Positions 4,976 through 9,184 of a stretch of DNA of 64,000 bases are shown here, piece after piece. The translations under genes were made by a program, and so were the position numbers. Each line of letters starts with the position of its first letter. Within the stretch, counting starts at the first letter, position 1. The notes below the pieces were generated by a model that saw only the letters and a program-made list of their open reading frames with translations, ran no database searches and was not told the origin of the DNA. Source of the DNA: Bradyrhizobium amphicarpaeae (GTDB lineage: Bacteria > Pseudomonadota > Alphaproteobacteria > Rhizobiales > Xanthobacteraceae); the NCBI RefSeq assembly GCF_002266435.3, contig NZ_CP029426.2:4184001-4248000 (forward strand). The letters are read 5' to 3'.

Positions 4976-4992
4976 ATTCTCCAAAATTGAAT
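4976..4992. promoter_or_regulatory. Candidate LysR-type operator (T-N11-A)
   Basis: ATTCTCCAAAATTGAAT is an imperfect palindrome with ATTC/GAAT arms around a T-N11-A core, the usual LysR-family site. It lies in the 107-base divergent region between the flavoprotein gene (minus) and the LysR gene (plus). Assignment as the operator of this regulator is inference. Confidence 0.4.
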
Positions 4993-5040
4993 TCTTACGA
5001 ACGCAGCCATCACAAATTTGAAACGACCAAGGAAACTGAG

Positions 5041-5931
5041 ATGGAACTCGGCGACCTCAAGACCTTCGCGACAGTCGCCCGCACCGGTGGCATCACCCGC
5101 GCGGCGGAAGAACTGAACACCGTGCAATCCAACGTCACCCAGCGCGTCAAGGCGCTCGAGGCGGAAATCGGCACGCCGCTGTTCGAACGCCACAGCCGCG
5201 GCATGACGCTGGCCGGCGCCGGCAAGCGCCTTTTGCCTTACGCGCAACGGATGGCCGCGCTCTCGCACGAGGCGGTGCTGGCCGCGCGCGACGACGGCGA
5301 GCCGAAGGGACCGCTTGCGATCGGCTCGATGGAGACGACCGCGGCGGTGCGGCTGCCGCCGCTGCTCGCCGATTTCCACCGCCGCTGTCCCGCCGTGCGC
5401 CTTTCCTTGCGTACCGCACCGACCGCCGACCTCGTCGCAAGCGTGCTGGAAGGCGCGCTCGATGGTGCCTTCGTCGCAGGTCCGATTGCGCATGACGACC
5501 TTATTGCGACGAGCGCCTTCCGCGAGGAGCTGGTGCTGGTCAGCGCGCGGCGCTGGGCTTCGCTTGCCGAACTGCGCGCCGGCACGCCGGAGTCCGGCCC
5601 GACCGCGCTGGTGTTTCGCACCGGCTGCACCTACCGCCAGCGGCTCGAGCAGATCTTCGTCGAGTTCGGCTGGCCTTCCGCCGCACGCTTCGAGCTCGGC
5701 ACCCTCGACGGCATGATCGGCTGCGTCGCCGCCGACATGGGCGTGACGTTGTTGCCGCGCGCGGTCGTCGAACGCAGCGCGATGAATGGCACCGTCTCGA
5801 TCCACGCCCTGAGCGCCTCGCATGCGCGGGTCGAGACACTGTTCATCCAGCGTCGCGCCGGACATCAATCCAGCGCGCTGGCCGGCTTTGCAGCCTGCCT
5901 GAAAACCGACGAGGACGTCATCGCAGCCTGA
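5041..5931 (+). CDS. LysR family transcriptional regulator
   Basis: A 296-residue LysR-type regulator. The N-terminal winged helix-turn-helix spans about residues 2-60 (LKTFATVARTGGITRAAEEL ... VQSNVTQRVKALEAEIGTPL), followed by a periplasmic-binding-like effector domain from about residue 90. The ATG at 5041 is preceded by AAGGAAA and gives the canonical MELGDLKTF start. It is divergent from the two nitronate monooxygenase-like genes, so it probably controls them in response to an unknown ligand. Confidence 0.9.
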   Translation: MELGDLKTFATVARTGGITRAAEELNTVQSNVTQRVKALEAEIGTPLFERHSRGMTLAGAGKRLLPYAQRMAALSHEAVLAARDDGEPKGPLAIGSMETTAAVRLPPLLADFHRRCPAVRLSLRTAPTADLVASVLEGALDGAFVAGPIAHDDLIATSAFREELVLVSARRWASLAELRAGTPESGPTALVFRTGCTYRQRLEQIFVEFGWPSAARFELGTLDGMIGCVAADMGVTLLPRAVVERSAMNGTVSIHALSASHARVETLFIQRRAGHQSSALAGFAACLKTDEDVIAA

Positions 5932-5961
5932 CGCGGTGACGCCGCGCCAGGCCGCGCTGTT

Positions 5962-8181
5962 CTAGAGTCGAATGTCCTCATAGGACTCGATCCGCCGCGG
6001 GCCGACCGAGGTGGCCTCGTGCGAATCCGCATCAGCGAGATTGCCGAAATCGAGCTTGGTCAATTTCGCGAGGTCCGCGATCGAGACCTGGAAGACGCTG
6101 ACATCCTCCTCCGACATCTTCTCGCGCAGATCCACCTCCTGGATGCGATCGATGTCCATGATCAGCTTTCGCTGGCTCATCAGGAAGGCCGCCGCCTTGA
6201 GCGCGTCGCCATCCTCGTTGCGCCGGATCAGGATCTTCCAGAAATATTTCGGAATCTGAACGCCGCCGAAGCTCGGGTCCTTGTGCGGCCGACCGGCCGG
6301 GTTGGGCAGATCGGAGCCATCGGCATCCGGCCCGTCGAACACCGGACCGTTCATGACGATGCCCTTCTCCTCGCCTTCGAGCAGGACATCGCGCGTGTAA
6401 TCCTCAAGTCCCGCCCAGAGCTGCTTGCCCTGGTTGAACGAGAAGAACTGCGGCGAGCAATTGGTGAAGTGGAAGGAATCGTCACCATGCTGCTTGGCCG
6501 CGGCGACGGTGTCGCCCCAGGTCGCGTCCAGCCGGCGCACGAGATGGCCACGGTCGAACGGATTCTTGGTGCGGTCCGCCTCGAGGGTGGCCTGCTTGCG
6601 GTAGAACTCGTCGCCGATCTGGGCATCGTCGTCGATGCGGGGATCGCGCAGCCAGGAATCGCCCTCGCGCTTGCCGACGTCCTGTTGCTGCCCGCCGTCG
6701 ATATTGACACAGCTGAAGAAGGCGAGCCGGCGCTGCTTGTTCATGACGACGCTGTAGTTGAAATATTTCAGCTCGGACTGCCTGGAGTTCCCCTTGAGCG
6801 TCGCGATCCCGGATTTGAGAGCGGCCGGAATCGTCGGCAAGGGCACCGAGAATTTGCCGGTACCGAGAAAATTCGGCTTGTATCCGGGACGCGATTTCAG
6901 CGTGCTCTGATCGATATGCACGGCCTCCATCGGCAGGCCGTTCGCACTGATGTTTGACGGGAGGCCGACCGGCGGGGCGAGCAACGGCTTGCCGCCGTTC
7001 TGCATGACGCCGTTCGGGCCTTTTCCGTTGCCCCCCGATGGACTCGGCAGGGGTGCCGGCGGCGCGAACGGAATGTCCTTCCTGAACGTCGGCAACGGCA
7101 CCCGGATCGGGACCACCAGTGAGGTTCCGTCCAGGGACTGCTCGACCCAGAAATTGGCGCCGAAAGCAGGCGCGTCCACCGTCGGCCGGGCCCTCTCGAC
7201 CTCGAGCCGGGCCGGCGGCTCTTCCTCGTCCAGCACCGGCTTGATCAGGGGATGGGAGCCGACGGCAACCTTGAGATCGGCGACGATCGCGCTGATGCGG
7301 ATGCCTTCATTGGCCACCCAGTCGATCAGGGATTCATCCATCGACGGCTTCCATACCTTGCCGTCCTTGGTCAGGGTGCGGCCCTGCGAATCCTTGCGGG
7401 GAACGCCGCTGTGATGCAGCGCGACCACCTGCCAGAAGCGGTTGAATGCCGGCGAGCCCGACGATCCTGCCGTCGTGTCGGTGTTGTACCAGAGGAAGTC
7501 GCCGACATATTTGAGCAGCTTGTTCTCGCGCACGCAGACCTGCTTCATTTGCCCGCTCGGATGCTGGACGATGGTGAGGTACTCGCCGGGATCTGCCTTG
7601 CCGGGCGCGCCGCTGAGCGGCAACCATCCCCAATCCTCGAGCTTTTCCCCGCCGGACAGCGAGGTCGGCGCCACCGCGACGATCGAGAAATCCAGCCTGT
7701 CATTGGTGTAGAAGAACTTGCCCGGCTCGAGGCCGAACCGCACCGGCACACGCTCCTGTCCCGCGATGTCGAGTTCGTAGTTGAAATCGGCGATCGAATT
7801 GGCGGCGTCGGCCGGATTGCCGAAGACATGATGGTTCGTCAACAGCAGGCTCGGCCCGATCAGAAAGCCCGAGCCGTAGCCGAGCAGGTTCGACTTGAGA
7901 TCCCTGAGCTGAATGCGGCAGACCGAGCGCGCGGCGGCAGTCCCCTTGGCGAGATAGTTGATGCTGTCGAGATCATTGCCCTGGATGATCCGCTCCAGGC
8001 CGATCTCGGCCTTCTCCACGTCCTGCGTCTCGGCCAGCAGCTGGCGCTGGCGCACGCGCATCTTTTCGACGGTCATCTCGATCGGACCGTCGCCCAATTT
8101 CCGGTTCAAGGCTTCAGGTGAGAATTCGGCTTGCTTGAATCGTCTTTCTGAGCCCGCGATCAGGCTTGGCTTGATGAGCAT
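5962..8181 (-). CDS. Trypsin-like serine protease fused to DNA/RNA non-specific endonuclease
   Basis: A 739-residue protein with two catalytic modules. An N-terminal helical stretch (1-95) has no signal peptide. A chymotrypsin-fold protease follows at about 96-300: TNHHVF with His118, LDFSIVAV with Asp164, and GSSGSP with Ser241, a complete triad. A Pro/Gly-rich linker at about 340-460 leads to a Serratia-nuclease-type (NUC) domain at about 465-700 with the DRGH motif (543-546) and the downstream FNQGKQLWAGLE block carrying the metal-ligand Asn. It stands alone, convergent with the LysR gene. The architecture recalls regulated protease or nuclease effectors of bacterial conflict systems. The substrate and trigger are unknown, and secretion is not supported by the N-terminus. 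Confidence 0.85.
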   Translation of the reverse strand: MLIKPSLIAGSERRFKQAEFSPEALNRKLGDGPIEMTVEKMRVRQRQLLAETQDVEKAEIGLERIIQGNDLDSINYLAKGTAAARSVCRIQLRDLKSNLLGYGSGFLIGPSLLLTNHHVFGNPADAANSIADFNYELDIAGQERVPVRFGLEPGKFFYTNDRLDFSIVAVAPTSLSGGEKLEDWGWLPLSGAPGKADPGEYLTIVQHPSGQMKQVCVRENKLLKYVGDFLWYNTDTTAGSSGSPAFNRFWQVVALHHSGVPRKDSQGRTLTKDGKVWKPSMDESLIDWVANEGIRISAIVADLKVAVGSHPLIKPVLDEEEPPARLEVERARPTVDAPAFGANFWVEQSLDGTSLVVPIRVPLPTFRKDIPFAPPAPLPSPSGGNGKGPNGVMQNGGKPLLAPPVGLPSNISANGLPMEAVHIDQSTLKSRPGYKPNFLGTGKFSVPLPTIPAALKSGIATLKGNSRQSELKYFNYSVVMNKQRRLAFFSCVNIDGGQQQDVGKREGDSWLRDPRIDDDAQIGDEFYRKQATLEADRTKNPFDRGHLVRRLDATWGDTVAAAKQHGDDSFHFTNCSPQFFSFNQGKQLWAGLEDYTRDVLLEGEEKGIVMNGPVFDGPDADGSDLPNPAGRPHKDPSFGGVQIPKYFWKILIRRNEDGDALKAAAFLMSQRKLIMDIDRIQEVDLREKMSEEDVSVFQVSIADLAKLTKLDFGNLADADSHEATSVGPRRIESYEDIRL

Positions 8182-8439
8182 TGTGACCTCTCAAATGACT
8201 GGCGAATATGGGACGGTGGCCGGCGCCTAAAAAATGCGCCAAGGTTGCAGCGTGCCGGACGCTGGCGATCGTTTGAAAATCGGGGGTGCGCCCCGCACTA
8301 CTTTAAGCCTGTACTTCCAGTGTCACGCAACCACACGGCACCATGCCATGGTCTGCACGTCACCAGTGTGAGATTTCCCACAAATCGTCGATGCACCCCG
8401 GCATCACGATTTCGCGCGCGTCCCCGGCCGTCGGACGCT

Positions 8440-8652
8440 CTACCGCTTCAGCTGCCACCGCCGCAGCGCCACGACGGCCCAGATCGCTTCGACCAGACCG
8501 AACGGCCAGGCACCCTGCAGAAAGCCGTAAGCCGAACCGAGCGCGCAGGACGCGGCGAACAGCAGAACGAACCAATGGCTGCGATCTTCCAGGGCGTAGC
8601 TGATCAGCATCGCCGTCACGGCGAACAGGCCGAATAATGTCAGTGCATCCAT
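8440..8652 (-). CDS. Small integral membrane protein
   Basis: A 70-residue protein with three hydrophobic segments: [36 protein letters not shown] and [14 protein letters not shown]. It ends in a basic tail (RRWQLKR). The function is unknown. It is divergent from ruvX. The 258 bases between its stop and the protease-nuclease gene hold no gene or clear signal. Confidence 0.7.
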
Positions 8653-8698
8653 TGTTCCGGGTTCACTCCGCGGCGCGGCGCGTGATATGCGCTACGCC

Positions 8699-9184
8699 AT
8701 GCCTGCTCTTATCCTGCCCCTCGTCGATGCTGCAACCCACTGGCCCGCGCGCGGCGCGCTGGTCGGGCTCGACCTCGGCACCAAGACGATCGGCGTCGCG
8801 GTGTCCGATCCCGACCGGCGGCTTGCGACCGGCGTCGAGACGATCCAGCGCAAGCAGTTCAAGCAGGACGCGACCCGGCTGCTCGCGATCGCGGCCGAGC
8901 GCAGGGTGGTCGGCTTCGTGCTCGGCCTGCCCATCAACATGGACGGCAGCGAGGGTCCGCGCGCGCAATCCACCCGCGCCTTCGCCCGCAATTTTGCCGG
9001 CCTCACACCCCTCCCCATCGGCCTGTGGGACGAGCGCCTCTCGACTGCGGCCGTCGAGCGCGAGCTGATCGGCATGGATGTCAGCCGCGCCAAGCGCGCC
9101 GAGGTGATCGACGAGCACGCCGCGATCTTCATTTTGCAGGGCGCGCTCGACCGCCTCGCCAATCTCCGTCCAGGGGCCGCCTGA
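8699..9184 (+). CDS. ruvX: Putative pre-16S rRNA nuclease / Holliday junction resolvase-like protein (YqgF)
   Basis: YqgF/RuvX family with an RNase H fold, implicated in 16S rRNA 5' maturation. Conserved acidic blocks are [50 protein letters not shown] and [14 protein letters not shown]. The 161 residues are a normal length. The ATG at 8699 gives MPALILP; an in-frame ATG lies 12 bases upstream. It stands near gatC, a common alphaproteobacterial neighbourhood, but here about 6 kb of accessory genes separates them. Confidence 0.93.

Follow-up and report, generated by a model that had tools for sequence, protein, structure and literature searches.

A trypsin-NucA fusion protein at a patchily occupied chromosomal site of Bradyrhizobium

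Introduction

Bacterial proteins combining a NucA nuclease with a trypsin were described in silico as System 3 by Kaur et al. 2020, the two domains being fused or encoded in one operon, mostly in alphaproteobacteria (PMC7159879). A proteolytic cascade was proposed for this system. A subset has EAD1, a STAND NTPase or extra peptidases as partners, and the core is also described there without EAD1. An earlier survey, from 2008, lists one Tryp-Endonuclease_NS protein, in Fusobacterium (PMC2605481).

Two further systems have experimental descriptions. In Caulobacter crescentus LypABC (Banks et al. 2026, PMC13236601), LypC carries a trypsin-like domain, a flexible linker and a C-terminal endonuclease aligned with NucA, and shares its operon with the CARD-protease-ATPase LypA and the NLR-like LypB. 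Tuck et al. 2025 (PMC12799240) describe protease-gated nucleases of the MBL fold, encoded in separate genes, with pairs found in Hachiman, AVAST, Lamassu and DRT. The MBL pro-nuclease is activated by proteolysis; in both of the trypsin systems tested, cleavage is at Ile residues.

Here we analyse a gene for such a fusion protein, TN, in Bradyrhizobium amphicarpaeae. The window is the whole 64,000-nucleotide stretch (contig NZ_CP029426.2, positions 4,184,001 to 4,248,000), and positions below refer to it. The architecture of TN is not new: like System 3, it has a NucA nuclease (Endonuclease_NS) and a trypsin-like peptidase in one protein, and it is a further member of the known, little-tested NucA-trypsin family. 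In contrast to the partnered System 3 loci, the TN locus has no EAD1, STAND or second trypsin gene and lies at one conserved chromosomal site. The layout of LypC is that of TN, a likeness of architecture that involves no comparison with the LypC sequence itself, but TN lacks companions like LypA and LypB, being flanked by ruvX and lysR in 29 of 29 loci. With the MBL-type pairs TN shares the combination of a trypsin-like protease and a DNA-degrading partner and, on the proposal made below, the activation of the nuclease by proteolysis, whereas its nuclease is of the NucA/EndoG type (Endonuclease_NS) and fused in cis instead of being a separate MBL-fold gene. A search of the open-access literature, with most subscription papers outside its coverage, found no experimental paper on a solo Bradyrhizobium protein.

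The TN family places a NucA/EndoG-type nuclease and a protease in one chain, in a genus of soil bacteria that holds natural present, absent and split alleles. These alleles make it testable whether one protein serves as sensor, protease and executor.

Results and discussion

The fusion gene and its protein

The gene and the parts of its product are as follows:

5962..8181, minus strand: trypsin-NucA fusion gene (TN), ORF of 739 aa with an ATG start
7996..8181, minus strand: N-terminal segment without a Pfam domain, residues 1-62, candidate pro-segment
7993..7995, minus strand: Glu63 of the LE[R]I[I] motif, candidate P1 for pro-segment removal (from conservation)
7267..7992, minus strand: serine protease region, residues 64-305, with Trypsin_2 at 103-255 (from Pfam and V8-type relatives)
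6928..7266, minus strand: Pro/Gly-rich variable linker, residues ~306-418, with a conserved island at ~341-362
5965..6927, minus strand: nuclease region, residues 419-739, with Endonuclease_NS at 462-716 and a conserved lead-in block at 419-434 (from Pfam and conservation)

A GAGAGG stretch can be read five bases before the ATG. The Pfam matches (Trypsin_2, 4.1e-19; Endonuclease_NS, 7.7e-41) are both far above the Pfam cut-offs. We aligned 59 rows, comprising the window's protein, 41 proteins from the protein search and 17 diverged ones from other loci, with 92 to 28% identity to the window's protein. The protease triad (His118, Asp164, Ser241) was invariant in all 59, as were the nuclease residues Gly545, His546, Asn574, Asn583 and Glu593. 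The median pairwise dN/dS was 0.108 for the protease, 0.097 for the nuclease and 0.306 for the linker (434-435 pairs from 30 orthologues), and 0.199 for residues 1-60 (30 orthologues). Neighbouring genes used for comparison gave 0.102 (gatA), 0.119 (ruvX), 0.125 (lysR) and 0.164 (AEC), with 26 to 30 loci each. TN is a real gene, not a chance ORF. Both of its domains are under strong purifying selection, and therefore both enzymes are maintained by selection. The sequence-only reading, made from the letters and their open reading frames, had recognized an intact serine protease fused to an intact nuclease, and the domain matches, the invariant catalytic residues and the low dN/dS bear it out.

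Some details of that reading needed correction. In its DRGH motif the G and H are invariant, but the D is kept in only 51 and the R in only 53 of the 59 rows. The long Pro/Gly linker is present at residues ~306-418, its Pro/Gly richness being a feature of the window's protein; it is interrupted by the conserved island, and a conserved block begins at about residue 415. The supposed N-terminal module of 95 residues is too long, because residues ~64-102 belong, by alignment, with the protease region of relatives, leaving an extra segment of ~62 residues. Arg14, within this segment, is nearly invariant (59 rows).

The protein search with TN gave 1,240 proteins at E ≤ 0.001 among 7,997 candidates scored, and both domains were present in 120 of 120 among the matches listed. 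The Endonuclease_NS domain of TN is the only one in its genome, which encodes one trypsin-only relative elsewhere.

The N-terminal segment and cellular location

The N-terminus had been suggested as a sensing or adaptor module. It matches no effector-associated domain: the Pfam search found neither an EAD nor any other domain in the N-terminal segment at E ≤ 1, and an EAD or adaptor within residues 1-95 was rejected on this basis. The other trypsin of the same genome carries an EAD11 above the Pfam cut-off. Judged by its sequence, the N-terminal segment of TN is better read as a probable pro-segment than as an adaptor.

Location was assessed by a hydrophobicity scan, which is not a signal-peptide program, taking the best 14-residue mean within the first 60 residues and a limit of 1.6 set by us. 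The window's protein scored 0.09, and none of 27 trypsin-NucA relatives exceeded the limit (best 1.41). Two of 109 orthologues did, likely as a result of wrong start sites. Three predicted secreted neighbour proteins scored 2.17 to 2.37 in the same scan. The result agrees with a putative cytoplasmic location of TN, and the absence of a signal peptide noted from the sequence holds, none being evident in the window's protein or in the 27 relatives.

These scores also bear on whether TN might be a secreted scavenging enzyme, digesting extracellular protein and nucleic acid, which we consider very unlikely. Such a role would fit the relative in Cupriavidus, encoded between gspF and gspG, and other relatives with Exo_endo_phos genes for predicted secreted proteins, or an S1/P1 nuclease gene by annotation, in their vicinity, but by hydrophobicity the Cupriavidus protein is among the relatives without a signal peptide.

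Nuclease-type genes occur near several TNs (L157:1820-2929, L158:10556-11665, L121:11290-12561 and L215:8243-8929; L and G denote our locus and genome handles). They encode Exo_endo_phos proteins and the one annotated S1/P1 nuclease, and both Exo_endo_phos neighbours scanned (2/2) have a hydrophobic N-terminus.

Proposed protease specificity and a candidate activation site

The best-scoring solved relatives of the protease were V8-type glutamyl endopeptidases, and those of the nuclease were EndoG and NucA-type nucleases. In glutamyl endopeptidases, His213 and Ser/Thr190 are described as mandatory S1 elements; in Glu-V8, the pocket is completed by the amino group of Val1, which becomes free only when the propeptide is removed; and self-processing at Glu(-1)-Val1 is described for another glutamyl endopeptidase (PMC5508998). 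In TN, Thr236 and His256 are invariant (59 rows) and in the printed alignments face the V8 Thr and His that lie five residues before and fifteen after the V8 catalytic Ser. We infer that His256 and Thr236 are the probable equivalents of V8 His213 and Ser/Thr190, and propose from these invariant S1 residues a V8-like preference for Glu. In this the S1 Thr and His of TN match the V8 type (PMC5508998), whose members, as described there, differ in being secreted, with signal peptide and propeptide; in TN no signal peptide is evident, and a nuclease is attached.

Glu63 is kept in 117 of 117 orthologues and in 55 of the 59 diverse rows, being absent from four in the alignment. A protease alignment (A2) with two EAD11 trypsins and one more trypsin that lacks a nuclease among its members has Glu63 in all 16 rows. 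Glu63 lies three residues before the V8 chain start in the profile match, extended without gaps, and five before it in the single-sequence match. A second subfamily, found with the protein of G229 (116 sequences of 580-700 aa among the 120 matches listed), has an LE[AS]I motif at a different spacing (fraction 0.99 of the 116), with the S1 His in 116/116 and the S1 Thr in 114/116. On the strength of the conserved Glu63 near the V8 chain start and the V8-type S1 residues, we propose that TN may be a zymogen activated by cleavage after Glu63; this and the pro-segment are proposals drawn from sequence.

Glu419 is likewise kept in 117 of 117 orthologues, and in 52 of the 59 diverse rows. It is weak as a cleavage site, because the whole block around it is conserved and the second subfamily does not keep it; as a family-wide site we rejected it.

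Chromosomal site and presence/absence

The surroundings of TN in the window are:

4987..5931, plus strand: LysR-type regulator gene (lysR), flank
8687..9184, plus strand: ruvX, flank
8446..8652, minus strand: sm75, small ORF (extent by homology)
5932..8449, no strand: segment that six of eight empty alleles without the cyclase gene lack as a unit; it runs from the lysR stop codon to near the 3' end of sm75

The collection of 29 loci (27 titled Bradyrhizobium, one Bradyrhizobiaceae and one Xanthobacteraceae) has TN flanked by ruvX and lysR, occasionally with an extra gene between. No STAND, EAD, second trypsin or other sensor or partner gene was found at the site in these 29 loci of its clade, as the sequence-only reading had surmised when it saw no obvious partner in the window.

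Within Bradyrhizobium, 93 of 251 genomes had some match to TN. A full-length orthologue with at least 71% identity was present in 35 of the 251, the window's genome included (counted from the table), and three more genomes have damaged or split copies, giving 38 in total. The gene is thus phyletically patchy, as had been expected for a defence effector. A universal chromosomal position, which had been named as speaking against such an effector, was found in part: the site is the same in 29 of 29 loci, but only 38 of the 251 genomes hold the gene in any form.

Of 20 loci from TN-less genomes, 18 keep lysR and ruvX with no TN sequence between them; the other two (L195 and L196) are diverged and less clear. 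Six of the eight cyclase-less empty alleles, on different branches, share a junction to within ~5 bases, in which the lysR stop is followed within ~5 bases by the sequence of window positions 8450-8455. The segment that comes and goes as a unit is ~2.5 kb long (5932-8449), and TN is its sole gene. In the other two cyclase-less empties (L191 and L193) sm75 is also gone and lysR is joined close to ruvX. Ten empty loci have a cyclase gene; their flanks were detected by DNA comparison and TN is absent, one of them (L180) having a further match of ~75 bases just past the TN end. Two neighbours were rejected as partners: sm75, also considered as an immunity gene, occurs in 17 of the 20 empty-site loci, and the cyclase-family gene occurs without TN in 10 of the 20.

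A tree of 52 loci, built from five flanking genes and counting the three damaged copies as holders, requires at least 12 presence/absence changes, and its starred branches alone force 10 changes for the TN-less group; being built on the flanks themselves, it does not separate exchange from loss. TN protein distances follow flank distances closely (Mantel r 0.93; 29 loci, 406 pairs; 0 of 999 permutations as high). One of the 30 TN loci, L040, has little flank sequence and was omitted from both comparisons. Independent deletions should leave ragged ends, so that a long series of them seems less likely than an exchange of whole alleles by recombination between flanks. TN is old in the genus yet often switched in and out, perhaps by such exchange.

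The history of the site suits a non-defence intracellular enzyme, for stress or DNA turnover, that is patchy because it is dispensable: TN is a single gene at one fixed site, its divergence tracks that of the flanking genes, and three copies are damaged or split. Against this reading, several relatives have EAD, STAND-like, AAA, RT or caspase neighbours and some are carried on plasmids, and we consider it quite unlikely.

Two side observations concern the site. In G186 (L114:6237-8400) TN is split into two ORFs, the nuclease ORF starting just before the residue equivalent to Glu419, which may be decay or a working fission. An ORF that appears TIR-like by reading its sequence lies between CPBP and AEC genes near the site at L034:4629-5957.

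Gene neighbourhoods of diverged relatives

The contexts of relatives were viewed in 35 regions and the named loci, with Pfam scans of chosen neighbours; three of the regions are damaged home-site copies and two surround trypsin-only paralogues. In G244 three genes in a row encode an EAD1 protein, which by eye seems to have a TM stretch, an EAD1-trypsin and TN, and by clustering G188 has a similar row. The TN of G229 is flanked by an EAD1 protein and a further trypsin, and a NucA protein related to it in G068 has an nSTAND1-pentapeptide protein two genes away. Close together in G124 lie a trypsin, a stand-alone NucA and two proteins matched below the cut-offs, one AAA_16/nSTAND1-like and one CHAT-like, and in G153 a NucA, a trypsin and an AAA_5 protein follow in succession. 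In G191 (L161:7821-12188) a retron-type RT, with RT_XIII as its best PADLOC model (595 bits), precedes TN by 408 bp on the same strand, and a SWIM-domain gene lies upstream of the RT; this is perhaps a retron with a protease-nuclease effector. Among actinobacteria, 34 loci match the nuclease half only, and 17 of these, all Streptomyces, have a trypsin match ~5 kb downstream. The one Streptomyces locus scanned (sp. NBC_00572, L053:7003-15569) encodes a caspase, a stand-alone NucA, a 1,813-aa AAA-EAD5-trypsin and a second trypsin.

In many other of the 35 regions no conflict-type neighbour was recognized, chosen neighbours having been scanned with Pfam. Recurring STAND or EAD neighbours, which the sequence-only reading had suggested surveying for, thus exist beside some diverged relatives (EAD1, STAND-like, AAA and retron-type RT genes, and the Streptomyces caspase), but none in the clade of TN itself.

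Three minor observations were made in these regions. The NucA of Streptomyces sp. NBC_00572 has no signal peptide by eye. In the window's own genome (C1 ~1816.5-1820.1 kb, L115:6469-10079), one gene away from the EAD11-trypsin there is an ABC-type ATPase whose EAD11 is weak (24.1 bits against a cut-off of 26, and 27.9 bits when the genome was searched). In G031 (L120:5641-10010), an EAD11-trypsin adjoins an EAD11-NACHT-HEAT protein on the same strand.

Proposed function

We propose that TN belongs to the NucA-trypsin conflict family as a nuclease that acts in the cytoplasm under the control of its protease, in a one-gene version without STAND or EAD sensor genes alongside, a judgement that we regard as evenly balanced. 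It starts from features read in the sequence, namely the fusion, the conserved active sites, the lack of an evident signal peptide, Glu63, the S1 residues, the patchy presence at a single site and the contexts of relatives; from these we infer the cytoplasmic location, the zymogen state, the specificity, the cleavage sites, the trigger and a role against phages or mobile DNA.

TN would probably be made inactive. A trigger would lead to cleavage after Glu63, and the new N-terminus would complete a V8-like, Glu-preferring S1 pocket. Acting in cis or in trans, the active protease could then cut within the linker or where the nuclease region begins, and other proteins might be cut as well. A second cut at Glu419, a weak step, would free the nuclease. 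Once freed or unmasked, the nuclease would degrade nucleic acids, and the infected or invaded cell would die or stop growing.

A conflict role is favoured by the conflict-type neighbours of some relatives, by plasmid carriage and by the patchy allele. Against it stand the fixed position, with divergence that tracks the flanks, the relative in a type II secretion operon, and the lack of a sensor or partner at the TN site, whereas LypC works with LypA and LypB. PADLOC and NCBIfam gave only weak protease-level matches to TN, and membership in their systems was rejected. A search of the genome for EAD1 was empty, the controls giving no match either. A self-destruct or defence effector, as first suggested from the sequence, is still the likeliest reading, drawn from relatives, but the partner genes that some relatives have are missing in TN's own clade.

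In the strictest form of this proposal TN would be a one-gene suicide cascade: a V8-like, Glu-specific zymogen in which removal of the pro-segment at Glu63 would be both the response to the trigger and the step that forms the active site, and which would afterwards release its cis-fused NucA/EndoG-type nuclease. We consider this full cascade unlikely. If it were true, bacterial immunity would have a second and independent class of protease-gated nuclease, one that has no separate sensor gene. EndoG in eukaryotic cell death offers a parallel that is no more than suggestive.

The nuclease need not be the executor. TN could instead be a regulator like LypC, its protease being the working part that activates an unlinked executor, for example of lysis, and its nuclease mainly stabilising the protein. 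Caulobacter LypC shares this layout; lysis is reported to need its protease Ser but not its nuclease residues, and LypC without the nuclease domain is described as unstable (PMC13236601). The nuclease site of TN, however, is invariant in 59 rows with a dN/dS as low as that of the protease, which would be odd if catalysis were irrelevant, and a genome search with one query, run with no positive control, returned no LypB-like protein. DUF2460, which we take to be a marker of gene transfer agents, is also absent from the genome, with Caulobacter among the positive controls; a gene-transfer-agent role as in Caulobacter was rejected for the same reason. We consider a LypC-like role unlikely.

Plasmids, phages and the wider family

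Including the window's own genome, TN matches were present in 17 of 60 relatives and in 12 of 289 genomes of the class. Among plasmids, 120 of 72,556 records had a match, in 17 cases over 80% or more of the protein at a single place; by type, 48 of these 120 records are conjugative and 20 mobilizable. A phage origin was rejected, as only one of 50,697 phage records matches, and that with the nuclease part only.

We opened nine plasmid regions, one of them without annotation. In the eight annotated regions no annotated STAND- or EAD-type gene was seen. Together with the many regions in which no STAND or EAD neighbour was recognized, these eight indicate that solo fusions are not rare. One plasmid TN lies between gspF and gspG (Cupriavidus basilensis plasmid pRK1-2, L214:5854-7980), in a type II secretion operon and without an evident signal peptide. 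G156 (L122:4445-8134) encodes a triple fusion of 1,229 aa, joining a trypsin, a NucA nuclease and a calcineurin-like phosphoesterase.
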